Of a stretch of DNA of 64,000 nt, positions 28,682 to 64,000 are shown one piece after another. The position numbers and the translations under genes were made by a program. Below the pieces are notes generated by a model. That model did not search any database. It saw nothing but the letters and a program-made list of their open reading frames with translations, and had not been told where the DNA came from. Source of the DNA: Candidatus Kapaibacterium sp. (GTDB lineage: Bacteria; Bacteroidota; Ignavibacteria; Kapaibacteriales; UBA7675); NCBI GenBank assembly GCA_028284775.1, contig JANQRB010000132.1, positions 1-64,000 of the forward strand, read 5' to 3'. Position 1 is the stretch's first letter. Each line of letters starts with the position of its first letter.

Positions 28682-31600
28682 CTAACGCAGGATATTTAGC
28701 GGAACACTTCCAATCCTTGTAGGATCGGCTGCGCTGTATGCCTGTAACAGAAGCACGTAGCTGCCCTGGCTGAGTCGCGCGCCCGATTCAGTACTCACAT
28801 TCCATGGAATCCTGTGTCCCCCGGCCTTCAGCTCCATCTCGGGGAGTCCGCCGACAAGACGACCCTGCGCGTCATACATACGAATCCGGACTTGCGCGTC
28901 TTCGGGCAGGTTGAATTCGATGTTAACAAGCTCGCGAGCCGGATTGGGGCTGACCGCAAGTGGTATCGAGGCTGGAGACGCTTGTCGAACATCGCCTGCA
29001 TTTTCAGTGCCCGGAATAGCTGATTTTACCAGCTGTTCAACAACTCTGATGGTATGTGTCGTCGTGCCGTTGGCATTCTCCAGCGTGTAGCTAAAGGCAT
29101 CCGGAAAATCATTGACGACAACGTCGTACTTAAACGTGAAGCTCTTGGAAGTCGGCGAGAGCGACAGCTCATTCCACAGCGTCACATTCCCGAATGTGCC
29201 TGATGTCTGCCCCTGCAGCGTGACGGGAAGATCGGCGGGAAACTGCGACTGGACGGTGACGAAGATAGTCGACTCCGACCGCAAGCGGCTTACCGTCTTT
29301 GATTCGCCATTCGGCAGTATCAGCAGTTCGAAGGCGGCCAGGGCATTATCGCCCCTGCCCGCGGCGTAGATGTGTTTACTATCGTCCGTTACCGTCAGGG
29401 CGCGTAGCTGCCGGAGGCCGTCGACGCCGTCCCGGCCGTCTTGGAGTTTATGGGCCGGGGTCAGCTCGCCGCTGTTGAGGTCGCGGGTGAATACCGTCAG
29501 CGCATTATCGCTTTCACCCGCAACGTAGAGATTCGCGCCGTCCTTGCTTATCGCTAGGTCGCTCGCCCGCGCCAGCCCATTCACGCCGGGCGCCCCGTCG
29601 CGTATGCGTTGCAGGAAGGAGAGGTTGCCCGTGGATTCCGTTCGCCGGAAGGTCGCCACGGCGTTGTCGTTGCTGCCCGCCACGTAGACAAAGCGCGTGT
29701 CCGGGGAGACAACTACGGATGCGGCGCCTGCCAGGCCGTCGATACCGCTAGCGCCGTCTTTGAAACATTGCCGATAGCTCAGGCTGCCGTCGCTCAGCGC
29801 GCGGTCGAACTGCGCCAGTGCGTCGTCGCTATGGCCGGCGACGAAGACGCTGAGTCCGTCGAGACTGACCGTGACGTCAAGGGCACCGTTCAATCCGTCG
29901 ACGCTGCCACTGTTGTCTTGGAAATGTTCGATGAAACGTAAGGCGCCGCTCGACAGATCGCGGCCGAAAACGGCAAGGGCATCACCGCTGAAGGCCGCTA
30001 CATAGACATTGCTGCCGTCGGGACTGATCGCCAGCCCGCGCGGCCGCTGCATTCCCAGGACGCCGTTTTGTCCGTGACGCAAATGATCAACATAGCTCAG
30101 CGTGCCGTCGCTGGCATTGCGACTGAAAACCACGATCGCATTGTCTCGATAGGCGACCGCATAGAGGTGGCGTCCGTCCGGGCTGAGCGCGAGCGCCGCC
30201 GGATAGCGCATGCGCGTTACGCCCCTGCGTCCATGCCGTACGCGGCCGATATAGCGTAGGGTACCGCTCGTGACCGTCCGTTCAAACATGGCAATCGAGT
30301 TATCCGACCAGCCGGCGGCATAAACGTGTTTACCGTCGGGACTCGCCGCCACGTCATTGACGCGTCGCAGCCCGCGTACCCCGCCCCTGCGGTCTTTTTC
30401 GCGTTCGATGAACTCCAGGTTGACATAGTTAACAATTGCAGGTTGGACGGCGACGATCACGGCTCCCGTTGCTACGCAGCCGTCGCTATTCTCGATGCTG
30501 TAGTTGAAACTTTCACAGCCGGCCGAGCTGGCCGCGGCGGTATACAGCAGCGTGCCGGCCGAGCTAATCGTTACGCTGCCGATCGTGGGATTCCCGGCCG
30601 CCAGCAGGCTCAGACTACCGCCGGTATCGTTGGCGAGAACGTCGATCTCGACCATTTGGCCCGAGCTCACGCTGGCGTGGTCCATTGCGGCGAAGACTAC
30701 GGCCTCGAAGCTCATGCTCGTCGAGCGAACGCCGCCCAGCGAGAGTGTTTCGGTCAGCGTGACGCCGCCGCCGGCCAGCGCCTGAATCTTTACCGATGCA
30801 CAGGTGCTATTCTGACCACTCGCGACCTCGCCATTAAATACGGACCAGCTATAGCTCGCTCCCGGCAGCGGCGTATCGAGTGTCACCTTGGCGGGTGTTC
30901 CCAGGCAGACCGAGGCTGGCGCAATGATGGTCAGCGGCACAGATAACTCAAAAGCGCCGATATCGGGCACATCGAGGCGCGGCTCGCCGCGCTGATCCAG
31001 GAGCGCGATGCCCGCGGTGGTCGAAGCGCCGAAGGCCGGACTGCACAGTTGCAGGGCATGGGTCTGGCCAAAGCCGCCGTTGTCGGCCAGCGCTTCGAGC
31101 TTGGCATCGATGACCGTGGCCGATTCCAGCGCTCCGGGATTCGGCGTCACCACCCCGTTGGGATCGCCGTACTGATCGCCGGTCGTGTTCGAGCTGAAAT
31201 TAAACTGTCCCACGTCGCCGATCAGGTTAAAACCGTCCGAACCGCTCACCACCCCGACGTCCGGGCATTCGCCGCCGCGGTCGGTATTGCCGGCGATTAG
31301 ATTGGAGAACAGGATATCCGTCGTGGCCCAGATGCCGCCGCCGTCGCCTGTACCATTGTTGTCGCTGTCGGCGATATTGCCGGTGATCGTGCAGAAGGCA
31401 ATATCCAGACCGGGCGCGCTGCTGTAGACGCCGCCGCCCAGGTTGCCGGCTTCATTGCCGGAAAAAGTGCAATTAAACAGATCGGCAAAGATAGCGTTGG
31501 CCGCAAAACCGCCGCCATTGTCGCTGGCCGTGTTGGCCGAAAAGCTCGAGCTCGTTACGCGCGTGATGCCGCCCCAGTGTAGAATACCGCCGCCGCGACC

Positions 31601-33694
31601 GTCCCGCGCCACGTTGCCTCGGAAGGAACAATGCGCGACGTCCATGGTGCCGCCGCGTTTGAAGATCGCGCCGCCGTTAAAGTTGGAGCGATTATTTGCA
31701 AAGGTAGTGCTGTGAAATTCCGCGGTGCCGCCCCACATGGACAGCGCGCCGCCTTCGGTGCCGCTGGCTGCGCGATTATTGACAAAGCTACAGGATGTCA
31801 CGTTCAAAATACCGTTGCCCATGTAAATCGCGCCGCCCTCGGAGCTGGTGGCATTGTCTTCGATGTGGACGCCGTCGAGCGTCAGGTTGATATTCGCATT
31901 CGGCAGATGGAATACACCGCCGCGGCAACACGTACCATTGGTCACTATCTCACTATCGATAAATCTGACAATAGACGGACCGCCGCCGTTAAAATACCCG
32001 ACGCTACCGATAATCGCCTTGCTCTTGCGAATACTGCAGTCGATTGCATCCAGCGTACCCTGGTTAACAAAAAATACCCCGCCGCTCGAAGCCGACGTAT
32101 TGCCGACGAAGGAGCAGGACGCAGCGGTCAACACCCCATCAGCCAGATAGATTGCTCCGCCGTTGCTGGCCGCCGAGTTGCCGGTTATGGTAGCAGAAGT
32201 GATCAGCAGTTGAGGGGCACTGCTGTAAATGCCCCCGCCATGCAGCGAAGTCGAGCGATTGCTGGCTATTGTGCAGGATGCGATGGTCACATTCTGCGCG
32301 ACTGCACTGGCAAAAATGCCGCCGCCTTCATCGAGACTGCGGTTGTTGCTGATGATACAGTTTTCAACGAGTGAGCTTTTAACGGAGTTGTAGGCAATCC
32401 CGCCGCCGGCGTTCGCCGTTGCACTGTTGTTTTCAATCAGACAGCCGCGGATGTTGACGATATTGTTGAAGCCGTTTACCCGAACACCACCACCTACGTT
32501 GGAATTGACCCGGTTGTTAAAAATGTTCGTATTAAGGATGTCGATGACCGCACCGGGCGTTGCAGCACCAACCCGTATACCTCCTGCATCGTCGTCCTCA
32601 TTATCGTAGACGTCGCACTCCTCGATCAGGACAAGTCCGCCATCGGACACGATGTCGATTCCACTTCCCGCATTATTTGCAAAGGTGGACTGTTGCACAA
32701 TAAGCTCACTGACTTGCGGACCTTGAGAATCGAATTCAAGGCCTTCGCCACCGTTGCCGGCGCCCGATTGACCAAACTCACAAAAACTGATGCTCGCAGT
32801 GATGCGGGCGCCGCTGTAACCATTAAATTCCACGGCACTGCCGCTGCCAACGGTATGCGAGGTGACGCGCGTATATGTCATATCGAGCGATGCCGTAGTA
32901 TTATCCGCCTCGAAGAACAGACCGCGGCCGCCGCCGAAACCCTTATTTTCCCAGATGTTGCAGTTGGCAATGGTTGCGGCAACATCCCTTAAATGGAGCC
33001 CTCCGCCCGAGCCATTCGACGCGTTACGTGTAAATAGCGAATGCGAAATCAGGTAATCTCCGTTGACTCCAAAGATCGCGCCGCCCCGCGTTTCGTCGAA
33101 GTCCCCGTTGAAGCGGAAGGTGCTGGAGGTAACAACGACATCCGTGCCATCTAAATACAACCCTCCGCCGAAACCAAGGCCGATGTTGCCTGTCAGCGTG
33201 CAGCCGCGAATAGACAGAGTGCCGCCCGTGATATGTATCCCGCCGCCATCTTCAAGAGTTAAATTATCTCTTATCACGCAATTGTCCAGCTCCAGATCGC
33301 AATTGATGCCGCGCACGGCGCCACCTCCTCCTAACAGCAAGAAGCTGTTCTGCAGTTGCAGGCGCGCCAGGGTAACCGCCACCGCGCCGACCTCAAAAAT
33401 GCGAGCGCCGAAACCGCTTTCGAGAATTGCCGTGGCGTTGCTTTGCGCCCGGATCGTGAGCATCGTGCTGATACTGATCTGGCCCTTCGTCAATACGATC
33501 GTTGCGCCGGTCGTAATATCGATAATGTCGCCGTCCTGTGACTGGCCAATTTCGTGGCGCAAGGTTCCCGGACTGCCGTCGTCGGCGTGCTTGTCCACCG
33601 TTCGTATAGCCGCCGTCGTGGCGGGCGGCAAGGCCTGAGTGCAGACAAACAGCAGTGCAGTCAATACCATGCCCAAAGGTCTTCGAAGTTTCAC
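28682..33694 (-). CDS. Giant secreted beta-helix/propeller protein with T9SS sorting domain
   Basis: 1670 aa from a GTG at 33694. GAGG lies 6 nt upstream and a standard signal peptide follows directly (KLRRPLGMVLTALLFVCTQAL, cleavage near TTAA), so this start is preferred to a TTG four codons earlier. Residues ~30-915 form a right-handed parallel beta-helix, opening SPGTLRHEIGQSQDGDII and full of GGGIH/GGAIY turns, as in polymorphic outer-membrane proteins. Next come a PKD/Ig-like domain (~930-1010) and a cadherin-like domain (~1010-1090). Residues ~1090-1458 hold seven lactonase-like propeller blades with SPDGxxVYVAGxxDNA. The end has VSPNPARELVNIEF, MYDAQGRLVGG and GSYVLLL, a type A sorting domain. 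Probably a surface-attached adhesin or matrix protein. A TPR-LuxR gene and a shared promoter-like motif lie directly upstream. Confidence 0.9.
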   Translation of the reverse strand: MKLRRPLGMVLTALLFVCTQALPPATTAAIRTVDKHADDGSPGTLRHEIGQSQDGDIIDITTGATIVLTKGQISISTMLTIRAQSNATAILESGFGARIFEVGAVAVTLARLQLQNSFLLLGGGGAVRGINCDLELDNCVIRDNLTLEDGGGIHITGGTLSIRGCTLTGNIGLGFGGGLYLDGTDVVVTSSTFRFNGDFDETRGGAIFGVNGDYLISHSLFTRNASNGSGGGLHLRDVAATIANCNIWENKGFGGGRGLFFEADNTTASLDMTYTRVTSHTVGSGSAVEFNGYSGARITASISFCEFGQSGAGNGGEGLEFDSQGPQVSELIVQQSTFANNAGSGIDIVSDGGLVLIEECDVYDNEDDDAGGIRVGAATPGAVIDILNTNIFNNRVNSNVGGGVRVNGFNNIVNIRGCLIENNSATANAGGGIAYNSVKSSLVENCIISNNRSLDEGGGIFASAVAQNVTIASCTIASNRSTSLHGGGIYSSAPQLLITSATITGNSAASNGGAIYLADGVLTAASCSFVGNTSASSGGVFFVNQGTLDAIDCSIRKSKAIIGSVGYFNGGGPSIVRFIDSEIVTNGTCCRGGVFHLPNANINLTLDGVHIEDNATSSEGGAIYMGNGILNVTSCSFVNNRAASGTEGGALSMWGGTAEFHSTTFANNRSNFNGGAIFKRGGTMDVAHCSFRGNVARDGRGGGILHWGGITRVTSSSFSANTASDNGGGFAANAIFADLFNCTFSGNEAGNLGGGVYSSAPGLDIAFCTITGNIADSDNNGTGDGGGIWATTDILFSNLIAGNTDRGGECPDVGVVSGSDGFNLIGDVGQFNFSSNTTGDQYGDPNGVVTPNPGALESATVIDAKLEALADNGGFGQTHALQLCSPAFGASTTAGIALLDQRGEPRLDVPDIGAFELSVPLTIIAPASVCLGTPAKVTLDTPLPGASYSWSVFNGEVASGQNSTCASVKIQALAGGGVTLTETLSLGGVRSTSMSFEAVVFAAMDHASVSSGQMVEIDVLANDTGGSLSLLAAGNPTIGSVTISSAGTLLYTAAASSAGCESFNYSIENSDGCVATGAVIVAVQPAIVNYVNLEFIEREKDRRGGVRGLRRVNDVAASPDGKHVYAAGWSDNSIAMFERTVTSGTLRYIGRVRHGRRGVTRMRYPAALALSPDGRHLYAVAYRDNAIVVFSRNASDGTLSYVDHLRHGQNGVLGMQRPRGLAISPDGSNVYVAAFSGDALAVFGRDLSSGALRFIEHFQDNSGSVDGLNGALDVTVSLDGLSVFVAGHSDDALAQFDRALSDGSLSYRQCFKDGASGIDGLAGAASVVVSPDTRFVYVAGSNDNAVATFRRTESTGNLSFLQRIRDGAPGVNGLARASDLAISKDGANLYVAGESDNALTVFTRDLNSGELTPAHKLQDGRDGVDGLRQLRALTVTDDSKHIYAAGRGDNALAAFELLILPNGESKTVSRLRSESTIFVTVQSQFPADLPVTLQGQTSGTFGNVTLWNELSLSPTSKSFTFKYDVVVNDFPDAFSYTLENANGTTTHTIRVVEQLVKSAIPGTENAGDVRQASPASIPLAVSPNPARELVNIEFNLPEDAQVRIRMYDAQGRLVGGLPEMELKAGGHRIPWNVSTESGARLSQGSYVLLLQAYSAADPTRIGSVPLNILR

Positions 33695-33829
33695 TACGTA
33701 CCTCAAGCTTGTATACTAAATTTTTTAATTATGACGGATTGAAACGAGCAACTCCCGGCAGACGGCCCGGCTCCGTGGATTCGAGCCGGCGATTGAAGCC
33801 GCCGGCCGCGCTGCCGGGGTTGTTCGAGT

Positions 33830-33869
33830 GTAAACTATTATCCTGTCAGAGTCCGGGCAACACGACAAA
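33830..33869 (-). promoter_or_regulatory. Composite promoter-like motif, copy at the beta-helix giant
   Basis: On the minus strand TTTGTCGT (33869-33862) is followed, 32 nt from its first base, by TAGTTTAC (33837-33830), close to the Bacteroidota -7 box TAnnTTTG. The spacing is identical to the four copies upstream of the long-signal genes. The gene start is about 136 nt downstream. Confidence 0.55.
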
Positions 33870-34054
33870 TCCACGACAAGGGGAAATCGCAGCGGAAATG
33901 GGAGTTGGAATGCGCAGCCGGCGGAAGCAGAAAGGCCCTGCATGCCCTCAACTCTCTCCCTTCTTCGATCTAATCACGTCTCGCTCTGCTTAACTGCGGC
34001 GAAGGGCTGTGAATCAACGAATCTCTGATGATGAAAGCGCTTGCCGGCGTCGAC

Positions 34055-36121
34055 TTAAAAAAGGTTAACAATGAACAGGATCAGGTCGGTATCGGCGTCG
34101 AGTTGCATTTTACGGCGGATGCGATAGCGATAGGTCTCGATGGTGCGAGGCGAAACGTGCAGAATTTTGCAGATATCCTTGCTGCCGGCACCGGCCTTGA
34201 TCAGGGCACAGACTTTGCGTTCCGTCTGCGAAAGCGCCGGATAGGTCTCTGCCAGACGTCGGTTGAAATCTTCCTGACCACTGAGCTCTGTGTCCAGATG
34301 ATCGCCGGTTTTTGCGGATAGGGCTTCATTAATGCTGTTCTGCAGTTTGCGATTTACGTTGTCGTTCAGGTTCGACGTCTTGTACTGATTATGACGCAGC
34401 TCCTCACGCCATTCGCGGGCAAGGTTGCGGAGGTATTCCAGTTGAAGGGCATTGGCATGCGCGGCATTCTTCAGTTTCTCATGTTCCTGCTGCAGCGTTT
34501 CCAGCTCTCGGCGCGCTTCATTGCGCTCGAGGCGCAGCCGCTTAAACTCGATTTCCTGAAAAGAGCCGGCCACGATATCATGGTTGCGCCGCGTAAATCG
34601 TGATTGCTGGACCTGCTGAAGTTTTTGAAGATAACGAAATGCCTGCCGGTAGTCACCGCGCTGTTCATGAATTCGCAGCATAGATTCGGCAATACGTTTG
34701 TAATTGCTGGCGTTAACACCCTGTTTAAACAGGCCCTCGGCCTCCTGCGCAAATTCGAGCGCTTCTTCCGTTTTATGTTCCGTCAGGAGCAATTCGGCAA
34801 GCATCAGGAGGACGCGAATCGTTAAATAGTCCATCCTGCGTTCGCGCGCCGTGGCGAGGCCCTCGTCCAAAACAGACCGGGCTTCCGCCCTCCGCCCCAG
34901 TTTCATATAGGCTGACCCAAGGCTCATAGAGACGTTGGTCAGGAAATCGCTTCCCGGAAATTGATCGGCCATATCCCTGGCCTTCAAGGCATAGGCGATG
35001 GCATTTTCGAGATCGGCCTCATCCCAGCAATCCACGCGCAGCATACTGCTAAGCGAAACAAAGATCAGGGGATCAGGATCCTGTCGCATGGCAAGCTTGA
35101 AGGCTCGGCGCAGCACCTGCCGGCCGCGATCGCTGTCCTCGAAGTCGAGATGCAAAAGACCGGTCTGTTCGATTGCGCAGATGTGACCCGGGTGATCGCC
35201 CATTTGTTCGTAGAGTTCCTCGCAGCGATGCAGGTATTCCAAAGCACGCGCAAAATTGCCTATGTATTTCATGTAACCGCCAAGTTCCTGCGTAAAGGCG
35301 GCTTCCAGCCAGGTTACTCCGGATTCCCTGGCGTGGCGGTAGCCGTCCTGCAGCGTCGGAAGCAGTTTATCGCGTTGTTCCGTTAAGCGGTAGCAAAAGT
35401 TTAACTGCCAGTGGATCGTGGCCTGCAAGCGATAATTTTTGTCGACGGCGGCCAACGCAATCACCTTATTGTAGAAGTCGATGGCCATATCAAACATCCG
35501 TGCCTGATAGAAGCGCTCCGCCAACAATGCATAGGCGCTTATGCGCTCGGCATTACTGCGGCAATCGTCCAGCAGATCGAGGGCCGCGTCGGTATCCGCC
35601 GCGGCGGCATCAGTATTTCCCATACGCGTATGAACCGTAGCCCGTGCTGCATGCAGGCGGCAGCGCTGCGCCGGCAGTTTAAGCGTCTCGGCCAGCGCGA
35701 GCGCACGTTCCACGACCGCCAGAGATTCCGGCAGCCGGGCGTACTGGCGGTGGTTGAGCGCCAGCCTGTCGAGTGTTTCGAAGAGTTTGTCCCAATCGCC
35801 GATTTCTTCGAGCAGTTCGGCCGCCTCCTCAAATAACTGCCAGTCCTGCTCGGAGTCAATCTTGACTTGCATACAGTTGGCGTACGCTGCAAGCGCATAG
35901 GCCAGCGTTTTGACGTATTCCCTGCGATTGCCGGCTCCTTCGGGCAGCTTGTGCATCAGGCTGCGCGCACGCTCAGCGGCGTCGGCGGCCATGCTGCGTG
36001 CCTCGGCCGGATTGATGTTGACGATGTATTCCGCCAGCTCGGCCATTGCCAGTACCTTGCGGCGCCCGTTCAAATAGCCAACTTTATTGCGGAGTTTATC
36101 GAGTTTTTCTTGTGGCTGCAT
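34055..36121 (-). CDS. TPR-coiled-coil-LuxR transcriptional regulator (paralog 1)
   Basis: 688 aa from the ATG at 36121. This start places LR nine residues after Met exactly as in the four paralogs in this window (M-x8-[LR]-R-x2-[VL]). About 520 residues of TPR-like helical repeats follow (for example YLHRCEELYEQMGDHPGHICAIEQTG). Then comes a charged coiled coil (FKRLRLERNEARRELETLQQ, roughly 540-600) and a C-terminal LuxR/GerE helix-turn-helix at 626-688 (LSQTERKVCALIKAG, SKDICKILHVSPRTIETYRYRIRRK). No receiver, kinase or membrane part, so a cytoplasmic DNA-binding sensor whose ligand or partner would bind the TPR region. It lies upstream of, and on the same strand as, the beta-helix giant gene. 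Confidence 0.88.
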   Translation of the reverse strand: MQPQEKLDKLRNKVGYLNGRRKVLAMAELAEYIVNINPAEARSMAADAAERARSLMHKLPEGAGNRREYVKTLAYALAAYANCMQVKIDSEQDWQLFEEAAELLEEIGDWDKLFETLDRLALNHRQYARLPESLAVVERALALAETLKLPAQRCRLHAARATVHTRMGNTDAAAADTDAALDLLDDCRSNAERISAYALLAERFYQARMFDMAIDFYNKVIALAAVDKNYRLQATIHWQLNFCYRLTEQRDKLLPTLQDGYRHARESGVTWLEAAFTQELGGYMKYIGNFARALEYLHRCEELYEQMGDHPGHICAIEQTGLLHLDFEDSDRGRQVLRRAFKLAMRQDPDPLIFVSLSSMLRVDCWDEADLENAIAYALKARDMADQFPGSDFLTNVSMSLGSAYMKLGRRAEARSVLDEGLATARERRMDYLTIRVLLMLAELLLTEHKTEEALEFAQEAEGLFKQGVNASNYKRIAESMLRIHEQRGDYRQAFRYLQKLQQVQQSRFTRRNHDIVAGSFQEIEFKRLRLERNEARRELETLQQEHEKLKNAAHANALQLEYLRNLAREWREELRHNQYKTSNLNDNVNRKLQNSINEALSAKTGDHLDTELSGQEDFNRRLAETYPALSQTERKVCALIKAGAGSKDICKILHVSPRTIETYRYRIRRKMQLDADTDLILFIVNLF

Positions 36122-36572: not shown

Positions 36573-36914
36573 ATGACTCTCCAAAATGAAGCCGAGCAAC
36601 TTGCCCGGGCCTGGATCGATGGCTGGAATGCCGGAAAACCGGACGACATACCGCTTGCGCCTGATTTCACGCACTCAAGTCCCTTCGGTGTGGTCACGGG
36701 ACGCGAGACATACCTCGAGTGGGTCAAGCCGCTGGCGGCTGCGAACGTGACATCTCTCGAAATTGTGAAGGTCATGGGCAGGGACGGCGATGCAGTCATC
36801 TGGTATAAAATGACGACATCGGGCCGCGTGCTTGCCTGTTGCGACTGGGTGCAATCGGCGAAGGGTCTGATCCTCGCTGTCACCTCGTTTTACGACGCCA
36901 CGGACCTGCGCTGA
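36573..36914 (+). CDS. NTF2-like / SnoaL-type protein
   Basis: 113 aa with a good ribosome-binding site (AAGGAG about 10 nt upstream). Sequence features are AEQLARAWIDGWNAGKPDDI, APDFTHSSPFG, GRETYLEWVKPL and AVIWYKMTTSGRVL, the usual order of the NTF2-like cone fold (SnoaL-type). Such proteins are small-molecule-binding enzymes, often isomerases or cyclases, or simply of unknown role. The residues do not reveal a substrate. It stands alone between two TPR-LuxR genes that point away from each other. Confidence 0.8.
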   Translation: MTLQNEAEQLARAWIDGWNAGKPDDIPLAPDFTHSSPFGVVTGRETYLEWVKPLAAANVTSLEIVKVMGRDGDAVIWYKMTTSGRVLACCDWVQSAKGLILAVTSFYDATDLR

Positions 36915-37179: not shown

Positions 37180-37287
37180 CGCGCTGGGGCGAATCAGTAT
37201 GTGCCGAATCCTGAACTCAGCAAATATTTCATTAGATTCGCCGGTAGTGATTGCAATCGATTACTAACTGCACATCGTGAATTACCA

Positions 37288-39363
37288 GTGTCCAGGGAAC
37301 TGATCGCCAAACAACGCCGAAAGGTTGAAACCTATCGCGGCCTGCGAAAGATACGCGCTGAAGCGGAGCTGGTGAAGCTGCTGGTAGATGACAGCAATGC
37401 CGAAGCTCTGGCAATCGCGGAGCAATCCATTGAACGCGCGCGCGGCCTTTTGAAGCGGGCGCAGGAGCGCGCTATGGCAACCGGACAATACGAAAGCGCC
37501 CTGGCATGGATTTTGCGCGCCAAAGCGCAGGCCTTGAGGAACAATTCCCGTATTGAAGATAGCCTGCAAGTCTTGGATGAGGCGATGCTTCTGTTTCGCA
37601 GGACCGGCGAAGAGCGCGAGTTGTTCCATTCGCATCTGTTCAAACACGTTCTGTTTCGCGACAGGAAAAAGCTTCCCGCGGCGCGGAGCGAGCTGGAATA
37701 CGCACTCGAACTTGGGCGCCAGCTTGGTATGGACTGGGAAGAAGCTGAAATACTGGGCGACCTGGGAACAATCAATCATTTTCTGGAAAATTACGCTACC
37801 GCGCGGGAGCAGTTTGAGCAGGCGCTGGAGCGTTTTCGCGTTCAGAAGGAGCGAAACTGGCATTCGGAAGTTACCGTTATTTATCACCTTGGCTATGTTT
37901 TCGAGTGTACAGGCGAATTGAACAAAGCCATTGCCCACTACGAGAAGGCGCTCGAGTTGGGCAAGAAGCATCCGGAAGCCGATCTCCTTTTGGTACTGCT
38001 GCACATGACCTGGATGTACGCCGGAGCCCGCATCAGCCTTGGCGAAACGACGCAGGCCCTGGAAATACTGGAGGAATGGGGAGCAGTGTCCCGGCAGGCA
38101 ACCCTGGTGTATCCGGAGGCAAGCTTTCTGGAGCTGACATCAAAGCTGTGCATAAGCACCGGCCGCTATGTTAAAGCATACCGGAGCGCGGCCCGGGCGC
38201 GTAGCCTTTACGAGGGGATTGGCAATGAGGGGGGCATAGCGATGACTCAGGTTGCAATCGGCAGAATTTACGCCAGCTGCGGCGAAGAGGATATCGCGGA
38301 TATCTATTTTTCTGCCGGCATCACACTCTTCGATGACATTTATGCGCGTCACCGTGGCGAAGACATGAGCATGCTCTGTACTTCGTTGTCGACCCTGGCG
38401 CACTTTGCGAGCCATCATATTGATGTTGACAGATACCTGTCGCTTTTGAGTGAAAAAATCGACAACTATTCCCTTCAGGCTGATAAACGCAAAGATATTC
38501 TCCTTCGGCAATGCGTCGGCCTGTTGCGAGCCCTGAAGGGCGACGCCGACTCTGCCTGCGCTGAGCTGGAAAAGGTCATTGAAATGAGCATCAGGCTCGG
38601 TTACGTTGAATTTCAATGCGACAATCGTTACCACCTGGGCTGTCTTCTTGCCGATCGCGGCGACATCGACAAGGCGGCCACACATCTGGAGGAGGCCTTG
38701 AAGCTGGCGCAGCGCTCCGGTCGCAGGGACACGGAACGACACATCCACCGGCGTTTAGGGCAATTATATGCAAAGAGCGGCGACACAGATAAGGCGCGGC
38801 AGCACCGACAAAGCGAACAATCGCTGATGGATCAGACCTATAGTCCGCAGGTGCGCCTGCAGCTCAAACTACTTCACTGCGAAGCGGAGCTGGAACGCAA
38901 CAGGCACGACATGCAGCACTTAAGGACAGAGCTCGCGAGTGCGCAGGAAAACGCCGCTGCCCGGCAGCGCCTGCTCGATTCGAAAAACGAGCATACGGCG
39001 CACCTGAAAAAAGTACTCGGCAAGGTTGCCGCCGCCTTGCGCCAGCGTGACAAAGACTCGACCTTCCGTCCGCTCATTGCCGATATCGAAGCGGCGACAG
39101 CCGACGAAAGCTGGCAGGAATTCGAAGAAGAAGTTCGCGACCACGATGAAGCCTTTATGCAGCGTCTGTTACAGAAGTATCCCAAGCTTACCAGCGCGGA
39201 GCAGCGTGTTTGCGCTCTGATTCGTATTAACACTACCACGCGGAATCTGAGCCAAATGTTAAACGTCTCGACACGAACGGTGCAGGACTACCGTTATCGC
39301 ATTCGCAGGAAAATGAATTTGCCGCCGGATGAAGATCTGAATGCTGCAATTCTGGCGATCTGA
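37288..39363 (+). CDS. TPR-coiled-coil-LuxR transcriptional regulator (paralog 2)
   Basis: 691 aa. The GTG start at 37288 is preferred over a GTG at 37201 because it restores the conserved M-x8-[LR]-R spacing of the paralogs (SRELIAKQ then RRKV); translation from 37201 would add 29 residues with no paralog counterpart. TPR-type repeats span most of the protein (YATAREQFEQALERFRVQKE, ELNKAIAHYEKALELGKKHP and DKAATHLEEALKLAQRSGR are clear units). Then follows a coiled coil (LLHCEAELERNRHDMQHLRTE) and a HTH ending in TRTVQDYRYRIRRKMNL. Cytoplasmic regulator. The motif pair and the 4446-aa giant gene follow on the same strand. Confidence 0.87.
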   Translation: MSRELIAKQRRKVETYRGLRKIRAEAELVKLLVDDSNAEALAIAEQSIERARGLLKRAQERAMATGQYESALAWILRAKAQALRNNSRIEDSLQVLDEAMLLFRRTGEERELFHSHLFKHVLFRDRKKLPAARSELEYALELGRQLGMDWEEAEILGDLGTINHFLENYATAREQFEQALERFRVQKERNWHSEVTVIYHLGYVFECTGELNKAIAHYEKALELGKKHPEADLLLVLLHMTWMYAGARISLGETTQALEILEEWGAVSRQATLVYPEASFLELTSKLCISTGRYVKAYRSAARARSLYEGIGNEGGIAMTQVAIGRIYASCGEEDIADIYFSAGITLFDDIYARHRGEDMSMLCTSLSTLAHFASHHIDVDRYLSLLSEKIDNYSLQADKRKDILLRQCVGLLRALKGDADSACAELEKVIEMSIRLGYVEFQCDNRYHLGCLLADRGDIDKAATHLEEALKLAQRSGRRDTERHIHRRLGQLYAKSGDTDKARQHRQSEQSLMDQTYSPQVRLQLKLLHCEAELERNRHDMQHLRTELASAQENAAARQRLLDSKNEHTAHLKKVLGKVAAALRQRDKDSTFRPLIADIEAATADESWQEFEEEVRDHDEAFMQRLLQKYPKLTSAEQRVCALIRINTTTRNLSQMLNVSTRTVQDYRYRIRRKMNLPPDEDLNAAILAI

Positions 39364-39442: not shown

Positions 39443-39482
39443 TTTGTCGTAGCAATGTTACGGCCATTGCATCATAGTTTTG
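39443..39482 (+). promoter_or_regulatory. Composite promoter-like motif, first copy at the FG-GAP giant
   Basis: TTTGTCGTAGCA, three bases, TTACG, 12 bases, then TAGTTTTG (39475-39482), a full match to TAnnTTTG. It lies 80 bp beyond the end of TPR-LuxR paralog 2. Confidence 0.65.
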
Positions 39483-39880: not shown

Positions 39881-39920
39881 TTTGTCGTGACAGTGTTACA
39901 TCGAGGATGATCTAGCTTTG
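39881..39920 (+). promoter_or_regulatory. Composite promoter-like motif, second copy at the FG-GAP giant
   Basis: TTTGTCGTGACA, three bases, TTACA, 12 bases, then TAGCTTTG (39913-39920), a full match to TAnnTTTG. TGT-N12-ACA gives the upstream part dyad symmetry. The gene start is about 670 nt downstream, so the leader would be long. Confidence 0.65.
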
Positions 39921-40194
39921 CGGATACTTAAAGACAACTGAAACTCGGCAGATAGGCTCCGATGGCACGGCGCTGATCATACCGGCACGGATCATCCCGG
40001 TGCTTTCGAACCTTCTGCCGGGTTTCCTTTCTCTCGCGATCCTAAGGGCGGGAGTTCCAGGCTCCCGGAATAATTCTCATTAACAAACCCGCGTACCCTT
40101 TCGGCCGGCGTCACAGACCTCGCGCCGCGGCTATCCGCTTGTCTTCAGCAAATGGCCGGGCTCACTGCTGGTGCTTTTTAGACAAATAATAAGT

Positions 40195-53933: not shown

Positions 53934-53960
53934 TGAAGAAATGATCTGAGGAAGGCAGAG

Positions 53961-56155: not shown

Positions 56156-56549
56156 AGGAATAATGTTTCCGGGCGCAAATCTACGCATAATCGCCACACT
56201 TTGCGATCCGAATATAGCTTCGCTTCCGGGGATTGAATTGAACTCCCGATTCTCCTCCGCGACCAGGTTTTCCACTCAGCGTATTAATCAGTCGGCACTG
56301 TTGTTTTTCATCAGGATGGGTGGCACCCTCAGGTACTGAAGCGAATCAAATTGGTGCATTGACATCGCCGCCGGTCAGACCCGGCCATGCCTGCTAGTGC
56401 TCGTTTCGGTAGATTTATTGTGCTATGACGGAGCTGATCCTCCGCACGAGAGCCTAAGGAAGCCGGCGCCAATAATCATTCGGTGTCGGTTTTTTTAGCT
56501 AATTTTCCGTCACGACACAGAAATGCCGGCACAGATCGTACAGTTGCAA

Positions 56550-58616
56550 ATGACACGCACCCCCTCCATCGCCCAATTGCGCAAGAAGGTAGCCTACACC
56601 AACGGCCGCCGGCAGGTTCTGGCGGTGGCGGAGCTGGCCGACCACCTTTCGCAGCAGCATCCGGATGAGGCGCGTTCGCTCGCCCGGGATAACGTGGAAC
56701 GCGCGCGGGTTCTGCTGGCCAAAAAGGGCGCCGATTCGCCGAAACTGCTGCTGTATCGGCAGGCGCTGGCCAATGCGTTGATGTCGAATGCCGGCTGCCT
56801 CCATGCGGCCTCCGAATACGATGCCGCCGCCCGGCAGTTTGTAGAAGCCGCGACTTTGCTGGAAAGCGCGTCCGACTGGAAAATGCTCCTTGTCGTGCTC
56901 GACAAGCTGGCGCTGCTGTACCGCCAGCTCGGCAAACTGACGGAGGTGTTGACGACGATCGATCGGGCATTGTTCATTGCGCGGGACCAGGATATGCCGC
57001 AGTATCTTGCCCGCCTCTATGCGGGCCGCGCGTCCGTCTACATCCGTCAAGGCAATGAGCAGGGCGCCAGAGACGCGATCGAACAGGCCTTGCAGGCAGA
57101 TAATCGCAGCGCCGGCGCCGAAGAACTACTACAGACTAAAGCTGCGCTGGGCGAAGTCTATTTCAATCTGCAAGAGTGGAAACCGGGAATTTCCTGGTAT
57201 CGCAAAGCGCTGCCCTATGCGCTGCAGTTGAAGGATCATCGGGCGGCAGCGGTTCTGTACTGGCAGCTTGCGTTAATTTACCTTTATACGGAGGAACACG
57301 ACAAGCGCTATGAAGCGCTGCTGGAGGGTCAGAAGCAGGCAGAGAAGGGCCGGCTGAAGAAATCCGAAGCCGACATATTGGTGGAGCTGGGCACCCATTC
57401 CCAGTATTTCGGCAATTTTGCGGCTGCCCTCGATTATTTCCGCCGCTCCGAACGCATCTTCGAAGAAATCGGCGATGAAGTCGGCTGGGTCATGAGCCAT
57501 TCCTTCCTCGGCCATACCTTTCTGGAGTTCGGCGACCGCCGCAATGGCGAACGCGCCCTGCGGCGCAGTCTGCGCACGATACTCGGGCTCACGCCAGAGC
57601 ATAAACTGGTCATTACATTGGGCACGCTGCTCGATAAGATAACGCTGAATACGGAGGGCTGGCGCGAAGTGCTCGATTTTTTGCTGCGGGCGCGCGAACT
57701 GCATGAGGCCCAAACCTGGGCCGGTTTCATTATCGATTGCAACCAGGCGCTTGGCAGAGTTTATGCAAAGCTCGGCCTGTCTGAACAGGCGGAAGAGCAT
57801 CTTCTTGTAGCCCTGGAGAATAGCCGGCTCGGCAAAACGAACAATCGCATTTCTTCTTCGCTCTTCCTCCTTGGCAACCTGTATGCGGGGCTCGGCAGGC
57901 ATCGCGAGGCAATCAAGCTTCTGCACGAAGCGCTGGCACTCGCGGAGGAGCGCAACTATGAAAAGAGTCAGTTCAAAATTCTCGCGCTGCTGCAGGAGCT
58001 GCACGAAGCAGCCGGCCAGCCGGAGCAAGCCTTGCTGTTTTTGCGCCGTCTGTACGAACTCGAACAGAAACGCCATACGCGGCGCAACCAGGAAATTGTC
58101 GGCAGGTCCGTGTTGCAGCACGAATTCAAACGCATTCGCAATGAACGTGAAGAAGCGTTGCGCGCCGTCGAACACTGGAAAGAGCATTCCGCCGCGCTCC
58201 GCCGGGAACAACGCGAAGATGCGCTGCGCATCGAACGATTTAACAATGCCGCTCGCACCTGGCGCGATTCCCTGCGCGCTATGCTGGCGGGCGCAGGCGG
58301 GCCTGACGCTGCCGACCTGCGTTCGTTGATCGTCGCGATCGAAGCAACGCTCGAGTCTGCCGACGAAACGCAGCTAATGACAACGCTGGATGATGACGAT
58401 GCCCACTTTCTGCACGTGCTGCGAGAACGCTTTCCGGATTTGTCGCAAACCGAGCTCAAGGTCTGCACTTTCATTCGGTCCGGATTAGGCAGCAAAGAGA
58501 TTTGCCAGGTTTTGAATGTTGCCCCGCGCACCGTCGAAACCTATCGTTATCGCATCCGCAAGAAAGTGCTGTTGGATGCAGAAAAGGATCTTAACGCCTT
58601 CCTTGCGGACCTGTAG
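56550..58616 (+). CDS. TPR-coiled-coil-LuxR transcriptional regulator (paralog 3)
   Basis: 688 aa from the ATG at 56550, the start that fits the M-x8-LR spacing of the paralogs; an ATG nine codons earlier (56523) is the alternative. Same length as paralog 1. TPR-type repeats fill the first ~530 residues (QQYFGN-type units and AIKLLHEALALAEERN are clear). A coiled coil follows (FKRIRNEREEALRAVEHWKE), then the HTH (LSQTELKVCTFIRSG, SKEICQVLNVAPRTVETYRYRIRKK). It resembles paralog 1 more than paralog 2 across the HTH, suggesting a recent duplication of that pair. First of three such genes in a row; no giant gene directly follows it. Confidence 0.88.
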   Translation: MTRTPSIAQLRKKVAYTNGRRQVLAVAELADHLSQQHPDEARSLARDNVERARVLLAKKGADSPKLLLYRQALANALMSNAGCLHAASEYDAAARQFVEAATLLESASDWKMLLVVLDKLALLYRQLGKLTEVLTTIDRALFIARDQDMPQYLARLYAGRASVYIRQGNEQGARDAIEQALQADNRSAGAEELLQTKAALGEVYFNLQEWKPGISWYRKALPYALQLKDHRAAAVLYWQLALIYLYTEEHDKRYEALLEGQKQAEKGRLKKSEADILVELGTHSQYFGNFAAALDYFRRSERIFEEIGDEVGWVMSHSFLGHTFLEFGDRRNGERALRRSLRTILGLTPEHKLVITLGTLLDKITLNTEGWREVLDFLLRARELHEAQTWAGFIIDCNQALGRVYAKLGLSEQAEEHLLVALENSRLGKTNNRISSSLFLLGNLYAGLGRHREAIKLLHEALALAEERNYEKSQFKILALLQELHEAAGQPEQALLFLRRLYELEQKRHTRRNQEIVGRSVLQHEFKRIRNEREEALRAVEHWKEHSAALRREQREDALRIERFNNAARTWRDSLRAMLAGAGGPDAADLRSLIVAIEATLESADETQLMTTLDDDDAHFLHVLRERFPDLSQTELKVCTFIRSGLGSKEICQVLNVAPRTVETYRYRIRKKVLLDAEKDLNAFLADL

Positions 58617-59255
58617 TCAATCCAGGCATATTCCTATCCTGCTCTCCCTCCAGGGGCGCGGCGCAGCAGAAATACGGGGGTCGGCAGCCGTTTTTTCACT
58701 CCCGCCCGACCATGTCGACACACTATCCTAGTATGCGAGCAACTGACATCCCTTAGTATTGCATTGTCTCTACGTTAGGGCGTCTGGCTGCCTCAGATTG
58801 CGGTTAACCAGGCACGGAGCCGGGCCGACTGCTGGATCTTTTATGCCCACGCCTTCCGTCGCCGGGATTGTATCTCTGATCCGGAGAAAGTGTGTGAAAT
58901 ATCTGTCCGTAATTAATACGTATTTCTGTCAAGTCTTTGAAGATAGCAGCTCCGGCCTTATTGAAGAATAACGCGGGCAACGTCGATGATCTTGCAGGTG
59001 CAGCGATGGAGCGTGAACGCATCGACAATACAATCGCGGCAATTGTTTTCTCTTCGATTAAGCCCTTTTTGGCTGATGAGATTTTCATCAGGCGATTATT
59101 CGTATCATTTTCCGAAGAGTTCTTTATCATCACTTCACGTCACCCAGCAGGGCGCTTGCCGCTCACATTCAGAGATTTCACTATATTCCGGTCAGTAGTA
59201 AAAGTGTTCAGGAGTGCGCCAGTACTTTTTCCTGCTCCAGGTCTCCCGAAATGCC
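58617..59255. other. Intergenic region with two overlapping opposite frames
   Basis: About 640 bp. A plus-strand frame (58937-59293) and a minus-strand frame (58804-59133) overlap each other and lack ribosome-binding sites, so neither is called. Base composition is a little more AT-rich than in the regulators. Confidence 0.45.
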
Positions 59256-60668
59256 ATGGCGGAATCACCTGCTCTCATCGAATTGCGTCGTAGAGTTTCG
59301 CAAGCGGAATCAGCTCCGCAAGATGTGGCTGCGCTCGTTAACTACTTGGCCTATATCGACCCGACCGAAGCGTGTCGTTTGACCCAGAGCGCTATCGACA
59401 GCAAGATCGAAGCTGCCGATGAAGCGCACTTGCAGTTGCTGCGCTGCCGCCTGGAAATCCGTCGCGGCGAAACCGATCCGGCATCGGTCGCCATTGCGCG
59501 CTCGCTCGAGCTCTACCGTCACAAAGCCGACCTGACCGGCACACTGCAGGCGACCGCCGAGTCCGCGCGCATCAATTTCGAAGTCGGCGATCGGGAATTG
59601 GGCAATAAACAAATCCGCGAATGTTTGACCTTGTTCCGCAATGGTGAAACAGGGCCTGCCGATCCCGATTCGGTTGAAATACTCCTCTGCTACGCTCCCG
59701 CGCTGAGTGCATCTATTGATCTGCTGGACATCCTGAACACAATGAAAGGGGCAGTGCCCGAAATGGAGCCGCCGTCGACCGGGATTCGCATCCGGCTGGC
59801 GCGATCGGCTGTCTTGATGCGAGGCTCGCAGTTTGAAAAAGCGCAGCAGGAACTGGCGCAGGTCCGGGCGCTGATCGATTTACACAAGCTGTTTTCTCTT
59901 TTGCCTGCTTTTCACATACATCAGGCGGAATTGTCGGAGCTGCGTGGCGAAAGTGATGACGCACTTAGGCATCTGAGCGCTGCCTGTGATACTGCCGCCG
60001 ATAGTCCTGATTGGCTTTTGCTGCGGCGCCTGCTGTTAAAGCGCGCGCGCTTGTATGAAGATGCGGGCGAGCATCGTTCCGCCCTGGACTGTCATCGCAA
60101 GGTCTATGCGCTGCTGAGCAATCGCCGCCAGGAACAGTCCCGCCGACGCATCGAAGGCTATCGGAGGGAGTATGAACTGGAGACGCTCCGCGCAGAGCTC
60201 GCGGGCTTACGCGAAAGGCTGCGAATCGAACAACACGAGAATGAATCGCTCCGCGCAACGCAGCAATTCTATCGGGACCGAAGCGCGACGAGTCTGACGG
60301 CGCTTGCTTCGCTGCAAGCCATCTTGCGGGAGCAATCAGCTTCCGTAGATGCCGGGCTTGCGCTGCGCCTTCAATCAACGCTGCGACAGATTGAAGCTCT
60401 GGCGCAGACAGATGACCCGGGCGCGGTCACAGATGCGCAGGAGAGTATGGCTCAGGAGTTTATCGAACTGCTGCTGGAAAGCTATCCGAGCTTAACAAAG
60501 TCGGAGCGGAGATTTTGCTCACTCCTGCGTATCGGCATTGCCGGGAAAAAGCTGGCGGAGACGCTTCACATTTCGCAGCGCTCCATGCAGACCTACCGCC
60601 ATCGCATTCGGCGCAAATTCGGTATCGGCCCGGAAGAAGATCTTGACGCTTTTATTAAACAACTGTAG
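59256..60668 (+). CDS. TPR-coiled-coil-LuxR transcriptional regulator, short (paralog 4)
   Basis: 470 aa from the ATG at 59256, aligned with the paralogs by M-x8-LRRRV; a GTG at 59214 is the alternative. About 200 residues shorter than the others: fewer TPR units (roughly residues 40-300), then a long coiled coil (EYELETLRAELAGLRERLRI) and the HTH (LTKSERRFCSLLRIG, GKKLAETLHISQRSMQTYRHRIRRK). Cytoplasmic regulator. It lies 105 bp ahead of paralog 5 on the same strand, possibly in one transcript. Confidence 0.85.
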   Translation: MAESPALIELRRRVSQAESAPQDVAALVNYLAYIDPTEACRLTQSAIDSKIEAADEAHLQLLRCRLEIRRGETDPASVAIARSLELYRHKADLTGTLQATAESARINFEVGDRELGNKQIRECLTLFRNGETGPADPDSVEILLCYAPALSASIDLLDILNTMKGAVPEMEPPSTGIRIRLARSAVLMRGSQFEKAQQELAQVRALIDLHKLFSLLPAFHIHQAELSELRGESDDALRHLSAACDTAADSPDWLLLRRLLLKRARLYEDAGEHRSALDCHRKVYALLSNRRQEQSRRRIEGYRREYELETLRAELAGLRERLRIEQHENESLRATQQFYRDRSATSLTALASLQAILREQSASVDAGLALRLQSTLRQIEALAQTDDPGAVTDAQESMAQEFIELLLESYPSLTKSERRFCSLLRIGIAGKKLAETLHISQRSMQTYRHRIRRKFGIGPEEDLDAFIKQL

Positions 60669-60773: not shown

Positions 60774-62813
60774 ATGTCGGAGAATGCGGCCGTCGTCCGT
60801 TTGCGCAAACAACTCAATTATGCGCGTGGCCTACGGCGGGTTAACGTCCTTTCGAAATTGGCGCTGGCGATTCACACATCCGACATCGTGCAGGCGGATA
60901 TCCATGCGCAGGAAGCCTTAAGCCGGATCCAAAGCTTAATGAAGCACGTCAGGCCTGAAAACAGGCGCTACGAATTGTATCGTCGCTCTCTGGCAAGGGC
61001 TTTGTGCAGTCGCGGCGCATGCCTTTTGATGAAACGGGAGCTGTCGCAGGCCAAGGCCGCTATATCCGAAGCGATCGAGCTGTTTAAAGAGCTCGAAGAT
61101 TGGTCGGGGTTGCTGAACGCGCTGGAAATTCTGGATGCCATCCATGAAGGAACGGGTGACTACGAGGCCTACCTGGCGCAGATCGACCATGCCATCGCTA
61201 TCTCCGAGCACATCGGCAGATCCAGCTTCCTTGCCAGATTGCATGCCTGGAAGGCCGCCAAATTGCAGGAAGTCGGCAGAGTCGAGGAGGCCGCTGCTGA
61301 AATGCGTATCAGCAGAACAAAGCTGGATAGCTTAACAGTTCGCAGGGAACGCCTGCCCTTGATGACAACGATCGCACGATTTTATCAGGACGCGGGAGAG
61401 TATCGCCTGGCGGCCGAATGGTACGAGCAGAGCGCCGTGTTGTCGCGACAGGGCGACGATGCATACAATTACATGGTTCTGCTGCATAATGCCGCTACGA
61501 ATTACACGGCGCTCAACGACTATCAAGGGGCACTCAGCAGCTATAAAGAATGTGCCCGCATCGCCCGCGAACATCACTTTGATCGCTATCTCCCCCGGAT
61601 TCTCAGTAAAACGGCCCGCATCTATTTGCGCCTCGGGGACTATGTCAGAGCTCACGTCGTCCTGACGGAAGCCCTGAATATCGCGCTATCCTTGGAGACA
61701 CAAAGCGATCTGCTGTTAATTACGGCGATGCTCGGAGACTTGTGTGTCAAGATCGGCGATGTACTGTCCGGCAAGCGCTATCTGAATGAGGCCGGAGCGC
61801 TTTTGCTGCAGCTCGGCAGCAGCCAATCTCATATTATCGTGCTGGAAATCCTGATCAGGCATCAGTTAGAGACTTGCCCGAGTGACCGTCTGATCGCTAT
61901 GCTCGAGAGTCTGCGAGACGAGTCCATGCCGCCGGGAATGACCTGGCCTGTTAACAATGCGATCCTCCTGGGAATTGCCTACGAGAAGTCTGAAAATCTG
62001 GCGGCAGCGTCAGCGGAATATGAAAAGGCCCGCAGCCTGGCGCAAAACTTCACGCATCGCTGCATTCATGCCAGGGTAAACTATCAGCTCGGATTGATTA
62101 AACAAAAACAAGGCCAGGCGGAACAAACGCTTCCGCTGCTGCAACAAGCCTTGGAGCATGCCAGGCGATGCCCGGAATGGAAGATTCGGCAAAACATCGA
62201 GAAGGCGCTGGCGGATGAATATGCGAGAACGCAGGACTATCGGGCAGCGCTTAAACACTTCAAGGCAATGTCGAATATTGAAAACAGCAATGAGCTTGCC
62301 AACTCGATGCGGTTGACCGAGCGCCTGCACATCCTTAACGAACTGGAACAGACACGGGCGGAAATCAGCAGGGTCAGGGAAGAAATTGAGGGTCAACACA
62401 CTTTGCGCGAGCAACTGCGCGCCGCCGTTCACCGGCTTGCTACCCGCGATTCGCAACTGATGGAACGATGGCACGACATAAGCACCAGCCTGGCGGCGAC
62501 TGCACCAGCGGGCGACGCGAAAGTGCAACAAAGTATCGACGATTGTGTAGCTGCATTCGAGAGGGAGATCGGACTATCGCACAAGCAGACAAGTGAAGAT
62601 GGCTTTCAGGCGCGACTCAGAGCGCGTTGTCCCAGCCTGACAGATGTGGAATGTCGCTTCTGTGCTCTTGTACGAATAAATATCAGCGGAAAGGAATTGT
62701 CGCGCTTTCTCGATATCAGCCCGCGGTCGGTTCAGGTCTATCGCAGCCGCATTCGCAAGAAGATGGGAATAGCGCCGGACCTTGATTTTCCGCGCTTTAT
62801 TCAGCAAATCTGA
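60774..62813 (+). CDS. TPR-coiled-coil-LuxR transcriptional regulator (paralog 5)
   Basis: 679 aa. AAGGAG lies 7 nt before the ATG, and M-x8-LR is conserved. TPR-like repeats run to about residue 520 (YQGALSSYKECARIAREHHFDR and LPLLQQALEHARR are clear units). A coiled coil follows (LEQTRAEISRVREEIEGQ), then the HTH (LTDVECRFCALVRIN, GKELSRFLDISPRSVQVYRSRIRKKMG). It is directly followed on the same strand by two motif copies and the long-signal gene at the right edge, matching the order at the other two loci. Confidence 0.87.
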   Translation: MSENAAVVRLRKQLNYARGLRRVNVLSKLALAIHTSDIVQADIHAQEALSRIQSLMKHVRPENRRYELYRRSLARALCSRGACLLMKRELSQAKAAISEAIELFKELEDWSGLLNALEILDAIHEGTGDYEAYLAQIDHAIAISEHIGRSSFLARLHAWKAAKLQEVGRVEEAAAEMRISRTKLDSLTVRRERLPLMTTIARFYQDAGEYRLAAEWYEQSAVLSRQGDDAYNYMVLLHNAATNYTALNDYQGALSSYKECARIAREHHFDRYLPRILSKTARIYLRLGDYVRAHVVLTEALNIALSLETQSDLLLITAMLGDLCVKIGDVLSGKRYLNEAGALLLQLGSSQSHIIVLEILIRHQLETCPSDRLIAMLESLRDESMPPGMTWPVNNAILLGIAYEKSENLAAASAEYEKARSLAQNFTHRCIHARVNYQLGLIKQKQGQAEQTLPLLQQALEHARRCPEWKIRQNIEKALADEYARTQDYRAALKHFKAMSNIENSNELANSMRLTERLHILNELEQTRAEISRVREEIEGQHTLREQLRAAVHRLATRDSQLMERWHDISTSLAATAPAGDAKVQQSIDDCVAAFEREIGLSHKQTSEDGFQARLRARCPSLTDVECRFCALVRINISGKELSRFLDISPRSVQVYRSRIRKKMGIAPDLDFPRFIQQI

Positions 62814-62977: not shown

Positions 62978-63017
62978 TTTGTCGTAGCATAGTGACAAAT
63001 ACCCCGGCGTAAATTGT
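62978..63017 (+). promoter_or_regulatory. Composite promoter-like motif, first copy at the right-edge gene
   Basis: TTTGTCGTAGCA, three bases, TGACA, 12 bases, then TAAATTGT (63010-63017). The last box is degenerate (TAnnTTTG with two mismatches). It lies 165 bp after paralog 5. TGT-N12-ACA dyad. Confidence 0.5.
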
Positions 63018-63558
63018 CGCATAGTCAATTCGAAAGGGCGGCTCCTTGGGGAAAGTGACGACGACCTGAGGGGGATGACGCGCCCTTTGCGGTCATTCGA
63101 TCGACCCGCCGGAAATCGGGATCAGGAGCTAACACGCGCAGCCAGGGTTGCGGAGATTCTCAAGCGCAGGATTGCGCTGTCTCCCTTGATGCCCCGGGGG
63201 CTCGAGTCGAAAGTGACAACTTTCGATGCGCCGCACATTAGACAATCAAATTCAATAGGCAGGCGCCGGATGATCGGCGGATTCGAAGGGTTCTCAATGG
63301 AGAATCCTGCGGGCGGTGCAGGCTGGACCAATTCTCATTGCGAAGCAGAGACAGGCGCGAAAACGCCGATAGTCGCAAATTTCTGCGGAGATCCAAACAG
63401 ATTCGGCAGCCCAGTTATGCGCTTCGCTATGCCGGCAAACGGGCGAAGACGAACGGGCTGCCGGTCTTTTTTCCGGCTGTGTCGGGCGACGCCGTTGGCT
63501 GAGCTTTAGCGTCGCTGCGATAATCTCTTTGTGTCGGAATAATAATACCTGTTGTACC

Positions 63559-63598
63559 TTTGTCGTAGCACGATGACAGAATTCCGCACCTAGTTTTG
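63559..63598 (+). promoter_or_regulatory. Composite promoter-like motif, second copy at the right-edge gene
   Basis: TTTGTCGTAGCA, three bases, TGACA, 12 bases, then TAGTTTTG (63591-63598), a full match to TAnnTTTG. It starts about 190 nt before the ATG at 63750. This is the best-matching copy. Confidence 0.7.
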
Positions 63599-63749: not shown

Positions 63750-64000
63750 ATGCGAATACGTATCAATTCTTCGTTTGCAAGGTATCTGCGACAGTGGCGC
63801 AAAACCTTCCGCCGGCTGGCGCGGCTGCGGCTTTCACCCCGGCAAAAGAATGCGGGCACGTCGCGAGGCTTGCGTCTGCTCAAACGCCTGAGCAAACTGA
63901 CCCGCTTGTTGTATTCCGCAGGCGGACGGGGCTTTGGCACGGGCTTCGCTTCCCTTGTGTTTGCCCTCTCCGGCTTCAGCACTCTTTCCGCTCAAACGCC
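63750..64000 (+). CDS. N-terminus of a long-signal secreted protein (cut by window edge)
   Basis: The frame is open from the ATG at 63750 to the end of the window, 83 full codons. The product is an Arg/Lys-rich stretch followed by a hydrophobic core (GFASLVFALSGFSTLSA) and AQT at the edge, a probable signal-peptide cleavage site. RKTFRRLAR at 17-25 and KRLSKLT at 45-51 match RKTIRRLAR at 17-25 and KRLAKLT at 45-51 of the 4446-aa protein. AQT is offset by one. This indicates a second member of the same surface-protein family. Its mature domains lie beyond the window. Confidence 0.8.
   Translation, partial: MRIRINSSFARYLRQWRKTFRRLARLRLSPRQKNAGTSRGLRLLKRLSKLTRLLYSAGGRGFGTGFASLVFALSGFSTLSAQT

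Follow-up and report, generated by a model that had tools for sequence, protein, structure and literature searches.

TPR-LuxR regulator genes and genes for giant secreted proteins form a cassette that looks like a genuine and hitherto undescribed system for the control of proteins at the cell surface. The window (the whole stretch of 64,000 nucleotides that was analysed) belongs to contig C93 in the 7.9 Mb draft genome (G000) of an uncultured bacterium from the Ignavibacteria/Kapaibacteria group and carries three such units, each composed of a regulator, a motif and a secreted target, at the places claimed by an earlier note (Table 1). The cassette has a defined anatomy with rigid spacing in its promoter, a leader hairpin that covaries and a specificity for secreted genes, and it recurs in other genera. 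It is probably a local unit, in which a MalT-like activator devoid of an ATPase domain binds a SARP-like operator and switches on the neighbouring type IX-secreted giant. A one-component activator beside its target is an arrangement known in kind, of which this system would be a variant; its RNA hairpin has no counterpart in Rfam.

Table 1. Features of the three cassettes in the window.
Feature	Position	Strand	Basis
Beta-helix + lactonase-propeller secreted protein P0004, 1674 aa, short signal, FlgD/Por_Secre-like tail	28682..33706	-	Pfam
Cassette 1 leader hairpin, CCCGGCAG...CTGCCGGG	33754..33819	-	Aligned to three related leaders (mean column identity 82%)
Cassette 1 promoter: TGTCGTG heptamers 33872-33878 and 33861-33867, -7 box TAGTTTAC 33830-33837	33830..33878	-	Read directly
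TPR-coiled coil-LuxR regulator P0001, cassette 1	34055..36121 (alternative 36370)	-	Pfam TPR_12 2e-16, GerE 5e-12
TPR-coiled coil-LuxR regulator P0002, cassette 2	37201..39363, start possibly 37288	+	Pfam, AlphaFold2
Promoter 2a: TTTGTCGTAGCAATGTTACG + TAGTTTTG, 30-bp spacing	39443..39482	+	Profile E 1.7e-4
Promoter 2b: TTTGTCGTGACAGTGTTACA + TAGCTTTG, 30-bp spacing	39881..39920	+	Profile E 6e-4
Cassette 2 leader hairpin	39937..40033	+	R1 61.9 bits, E 2.5e-14; used in training
FG-GAP/Big_5 giant, ~4446 aa, ~80-aa extended signal, C-terminal sorting-like tail	40593 (or 40587)..53933	+	Pfam
Additional TPR-LuxR regulator 5′ of cassette 3	56523..58616	+	Pfam GerE 3e-9, TPR
Additional, shorter TPR-LuxR regulator immediately 5′ of 60774	59214..60668	+	Pfam TPR_12 7e-5, GerE 1e-4; profile A2 match
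TPR-coiled coil-LuxR regulator P0003, cassette 3	60774..62813	+	Pfam
Promoter 3a: TTTGTCGTAGCATAGTGACA + TAAATTGT	62978..63017	+	Profile E 4.9e-4
Cassette 3 leader hairpin, then U tract	63395..63476	+	R1 57.6 bits, E 5e-13; used in training
Promoter 3b: three 11-bp repeats CTGTTGTACCTTTGTCGTAGCACGATGACA + TAGTTTTG	63549..63598	+	Profile E 1.7e-4
FG-GAP/Big_5 extended-signal giant, 1637 aa	63750..64000 in window (contig 63750-68663)	+	ORF

The earlier description of the cassettes as defined regulator-target units largely holds. Promoter and hairpin are present in all three, and nothing lies between the parts except short ORFs that are likely to be spurious (e.g., one at 63075-63509 overlapping the leader hairpin). 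Two details change. The extended signal ascribed to the targets is found in those on the plus strand, but the minus-strand target has a short one. The third cassette has the regulator assigned to it, but two more TPR-LuxR genes precede that gene. A small SnoaL-like gene (36573-36914) lies between the two divergent cassettes and does not obviously belong to either, and an imperfect tandem repeat (GGCTGCGCTCAACCTTCAGAGTTGCGGAACAGGTTTGGTAA) occupies positions 37060-37165 just 5′ of P0002.

The regulators P0001-P0003 combine TPR repeats with a C-terminal GerE/LuxR HTH in Pfam searches, which also bear out the claim that they lack receiver and kinase domains; ATPase domains are absent as well, and no obvious membrane segment is seen. 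Modelled with AlphaFold2 (mean pLDDT 88.9), the protein of 37288-39363 comprises a TPR superhelix, a 68-residue coiled coil and the HTH. P0002 matches Pfam TPR_MalT (PF17874, 4e-18), and among the matches listed for its model the closest solved bacterial transcription factor is MalT domain III (1hz4, TMt 0.76), although the fold match is not specific, as other (eukaryotic) TPR proteins score equally. The regulators resemble the MalT/LAL activators in joining a MalT-like TPR superhelix to a C-terminal LuxR HTH, and MalT also binds direct repeats near -35. In contrast to these activators they have no N-terminal NOD/STAND ATPase: there is no NB-ARC/AAA match and TPR-type helices begin at residue 2 of the model. 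They further differ from MalT by the coiled coil between TPR and HTH and by their targets, which are giant secreted proteins instead of maltose genes. The missing receiver domain separates them from the NarL-type two-component response regulators. Elsewhere in the genome up to five short (~570 aa) TPR-LuxR genes stand in tandem runs (C74, C46), interspersed in C74 with secreted genes of ~575 aa, and a 1145-aa Reprolysin-like metallopeptidase with RCC1 repeats is encoded downstream of a TPR-LuxR gene (C103:6406 onward, L252).

The composite motif reported earlier is real (TTTGTCGTNNCANNGTNACA at 39443, 39881, 62978 and 63559) and represents one half of a promoter. The promoter consists of two or three direct heptamers (TGYMGTR) separated by N4 spacers with an exact 11-bp period, sometimes with a TGTTACA-like last copy, and of the Bacteroidota -7 box TAnnTTTG (TAnnTT(T/G)G) exactly 30 or 41 bp after a heptamer. 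No TTTG -33 element is recognised at the usual position. Since heptamer pairs lie exactly 11 bp apart (10 observed vs. 0.01 expected) and the heptamers occur on the coding strand only, the reading of the motif as a lux-box-like dyad was dropped for direct repeats. The heptamer precedes the -7 box by 30 bp in 15 cases and by 41 bp in six, and the only other distances within 70 bp are 33 bp (once) and 5 bp (four times). Cassette 1 has both distances, with a TGTCGTG pair 11 bp apart located 41 and 30 bp before a -7 box common to three related cassettes.

De novo motif search in 30 upstream regions recovers the box unprompted, with an information score of 396 vs. at most 208 in shuffles. In the whole 7.9 Mb genome a 47-position profile yields 23 matches at E ≤10, most of them before giants and almost exclusively before secreted genes, and the promoter recurs some 20-30 times. 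The 886 kb surrounding the TPR-LuxR loci contain 36 boxes compared with 5.7 in shuffled sequence; nearly all are intergenic, and they lie mostly 5′ of secreted genes and not of the regulators, the one exception belonging to a giant remnant in C64. Because part of the sites served to train the box matrix, weight is carried by the untrained sites found before other secreted genes (C170:50051, C102:1872, C153:27925 and C3:21449). The motif is thus not found equally before unrelated genes, the outcome that the earlier note had named as speaking against it. The enrichment it had expected applies to the refined model of heptamer and -7 box, which is specific, but not to the literal motif, which in a genome-wide scan at two mismatches performs no better than a reversed control and was abandoned as a specific signal. 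The box is absent beside most of the ~87-93 TPR-LuxR genes of the genome, and a clear box or hairpin is missing from about a third of the extended-signal giants.

The geometry of this promoter is that of the operators of SARP activators (AfsR, PimR), which have heptameric direct repeats with an 11-bp period at a fixed distance before the -10 element (PMC10936776, PMC5930380), including an operator of three heptamers with 4-bp spacers (PMC5930380), and at which activation proceeds by ‘sigma adaptation’ (PMC10936776). Repeats, period and fixed spacing are shared; the TGYMGTR sequence and the Bacteroidota -7 box in place of -10 are not. P0001-P0003 also lack the OmpR-type winged helix and BTAD of the SARPs in Pfam searches; the binder here would be a GerE/LuxR domain. 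The likeness raises the doubtful alternative that one shared regulator of another family (an OmpR/SARP winged helix or an alternative sigma factor) reads the array and controls all giants while the adjacent TPR-LuxR proteins do something else. The box is nearly identical across cassettes whose regulators are only 20-45% identical, it is also found at several giants with no adjacent regulator (e.g., C93:90167, C101:7886 and C165:9966), and G001 and G011 carry one clear BTAD/SARP-type protein each, a known reader of such operators. However, the common box would be explained by the recognition helices of the TPR-LuxR proteins, which are strongly conserved (R..VE/Q.YRYRIRKK), and the joint recurrence of promoter, regulator and giant in another family argues against a shared reader. 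A SARP protein as reader was rejected, as the window genome, the richest in boxes, yields only weak and partial BTAD matches (best E 5.5e-6). The relative G002, from the family of the window genome, points the same way: TPR-LuxR genes are missing there, extended-signal giants are present, and none of these giants has a convincing promoter box. Two R2 matches in G002 look spurious, one within a coding gene and the other before an unrelated HTH gene. The TPR-LuxR proteins remain the better candidates for binder and activator, probably acting on the motif as the earlier note supposed, and the boxes at giants with no neighbouring regulator suggest that one regulator may serve several targets.

The 5′ leader contains a hairpin of ~80 nt, usually ~20 bp past the -7 box and in a few leaders several hundred bp beyond it. 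The commoner class has a conserved internal loop, GGCUnCG/CGAACC; the copy of cassette 1 misses the E cut-off of the covariance model R1. Among 19 distinct sequences 93% of cells pair and both sides change in 11 of 16 pairs, and all five measures beat all 500 shuffles and every slid version. This alignment was fitted to the model, and a MAFFT alignment of 11 sequences gives the same result. Frequent G-U pairs point to an RNA rather than a DNA palindrome. Strong R1 matches occur only before giants or giant remnants in two whole genomes, and likewise in the 10 genomes searched, and Rfam holds no match up to E 10 that concerns the hairpin. With its conserved structure and, in some copies, a U tract, the leader resembles Rfam leader hairpins and attenuators. 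As the U tract follows the hairpin in about a third of copies only, a plain intrinsic terminator was discarded; it may act as a terminator or attenuator in some leaders but not as a rule. A NusG paralogue that would work on it by processive antitermination likewise finds no support, the genome having a single NusG gene and no RfaH/LoaP-type paralogue.

Two of the window targets belong to one family with an ~80-residue N-terminal extension, a Big_5 domain, FG-GAP repeats and a sorting-like tail. The extension has a core, LLRRxRKxxRRLARL, and is followed by a normal signal peptide. The larger giant scores 2e-81 for FG-GAP_3 and 2e-27 for Big_5; its extended signal appears in alignment A1 and its tail is similar to a sorting domain by eye. 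P0004 contains Lactonase (3e-46) and Beta_helix (1e-20) domains together with Big_9 and, above its own cut-off, FlgD_ig, while its Por_Secre_tail score is 25.4 bits against a cut-off of 27. The genome encodes SprA, the component searched for as a marker of the type IX secretion (T9SS) machinery (SprA_N 3e-38), and at least 150 T9SS-tail genes; the giants are presumably exported by this route. In layout the extended signal resembles the ESPR of type V autotransporters, another long and conserved N-terminal stretch that precedes an ordinary signal peptide in exported proteins of very large size; here it has ~80 aa with the motif given above and occurs on T9SS-tail proteins. In the leader of the ~4446-aa giant two imperfect copies of ~120 bp (CCTTTGGGGCAAGGGG...GCTGAGCGCCGAACGAGGA...) at 40190-40490 possibly represent a small dispersed element.

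Regulators adjoin giants at a frequency far above chance, the point on which the earlier note had staked its proposal. In the window genome the nearest gene upstream on the same strand is a TPR-LuxR gene for 12 of 19 extended-signal giants, where 0.26 are expected, and in G001, of a second genus, for 6 of 11, where 0.07 are expected (binomial p ~2e-18 and ~2e-11, respectively). The expectation is based on ~93 TPR-LuxR profile matches (87 genes by census), ~6900 genes and the 19 extended-signal starts whose neighbours could be examined. ORFs of less than 150 aa were ignored, as were one opposite-strand ORF of 167 aa at C101:23668 and one of 158 aa at C78 of G001. Coincidence in a genome with ~93 TPR-LuxR matches and at least 150 T9SS-tail genes is already refuted by these counts and has a negligible claim, promoter and hairpin being independent of gene numbers. 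Of the 60 TPR-LuxR genes with a downstream gene on the same strand, 34 stand before a giant (extended-signal/Big_5), a gene with a T9SS tail or some other gene of secreted appearance (classes assigned by an automatic rule), 15 before another TPR-LuxR gene and 11 before something else. Regulator and giant are reciprocal nearest neighbours across genera (C170/g1C72 and C102/g1C71) and within the genome (C106b/C165), and the similarities of regulators and giants are correlated (Mantel r 0.34, p 0.007); similarity of the HTH alone does not track that of the giants (Mantel p 0.18).

Block copying by recombination could also keep a regulator beside a giant that it does not control. Giant starts and leaders are indeed similar among copies, and a truncated remnant of promoter, hairpin and signal adjoins a cassette in C64. 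This explanation is nonetheless very improbable, as promoter and hairpin are conserved between genera with compensatory changes, flanking intergenic DNA is not, and the exact spacing is kept while the sequence varies, all of which indicates selection on function. The remnant itself (C64:357-756) comprises the promoter, the leader hairpin and the extended-signal start of a giant interrupted by a stop codon; it lies directly 5′ of an intact TPR-LuxR/giant cassette, looks recombination-derived and is related to C101:7886-8106.

Relatives are found in MAGs labelled Ignavibacteria, Kapaibacterium, Neomarinimicrobiota and Bacteroidota, among others. The cassette of P0001 and P0004 has relatives in G000:C3 and in G001:C29, where a P0001-like regulator with the same target type lies at 96325-98415. 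G001:C71 (L195) also encodes a related target, behind the same box and hairpin; the gene upstream of it lies outside the view. The complete cassettes looked for in related genomes occur in a third genome from another GTDB family: UBA7675 (G011, Ignavibacteria bacterium) carries two, in the order TPR-LuxR gene, heptamer + N23 + TAnnTT, hairpin with CGGCAG/CTGCCG-like arms and FG-GAP secreted protein. The chance of a composite promoter in both gaps is ~1e-6. In Neomarinimicrobiota and others (L183-L212) LuxR-HTH proteins of ~1000 aa often precede, on the same strand, a large secreted-looking protein with a T9SS-like C-terminus (e.g., L197, L200, L203 and L207), which points to a broader theme.

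In the mechanism proposed for the local unit, the TPR-coiled coil-LuxR protein would be a one-component activator with the build of MalT minus its ATPase domain. With the TPR superhelix in its active state, GerE-type HTHs would bind next to one another, on an array of two or three direct heptamers. The heptamer array would stand in for the -33 element at its fixed distance of 30 or 41 bp from the -7 box, and the array-bound activator would recruit the housekeeping RNA polymerase to a transcript that begins with the conserved hairpin and continues into the coding region of the giant surface protein. A more elaborate version, which we consider rather unlikely, is a private switchboard: a large set of paralogous TPR-LuxR proteins, each tied to its own giant, would monitor export status or a surface signal through the TPR superhelix, with the hairpin as a second, RNA-level checkpoint before a message of 5-13 kb is made.

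PorX, PorY and SigP control T9SS proteins; they act on the secretion machinery via a two-component system and an ECF sigma factor, whereas here individual one-component regulators stand beside individual secreted proteins. To our knowledge, the regulation of individual giant T9SS surface proteins in Bacteroidota/Ignavibacteria is largely unknown, and in the literature searched, whose coverage is incomplete, no module of TPR-LuxR protein, promoter, hairpin and giant was found. The module brings together a regulator and its target gene, a predicted binding site whose geometry is exact, a -7 box and an RNA leader. It thereby becomes directly testable which targets belong to this class of orphan regulators and what the RNA element, hitherto undescribed, does. 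If the predicted binding is true, LuxR-type domains can use an operator layout known from the SARP activators.
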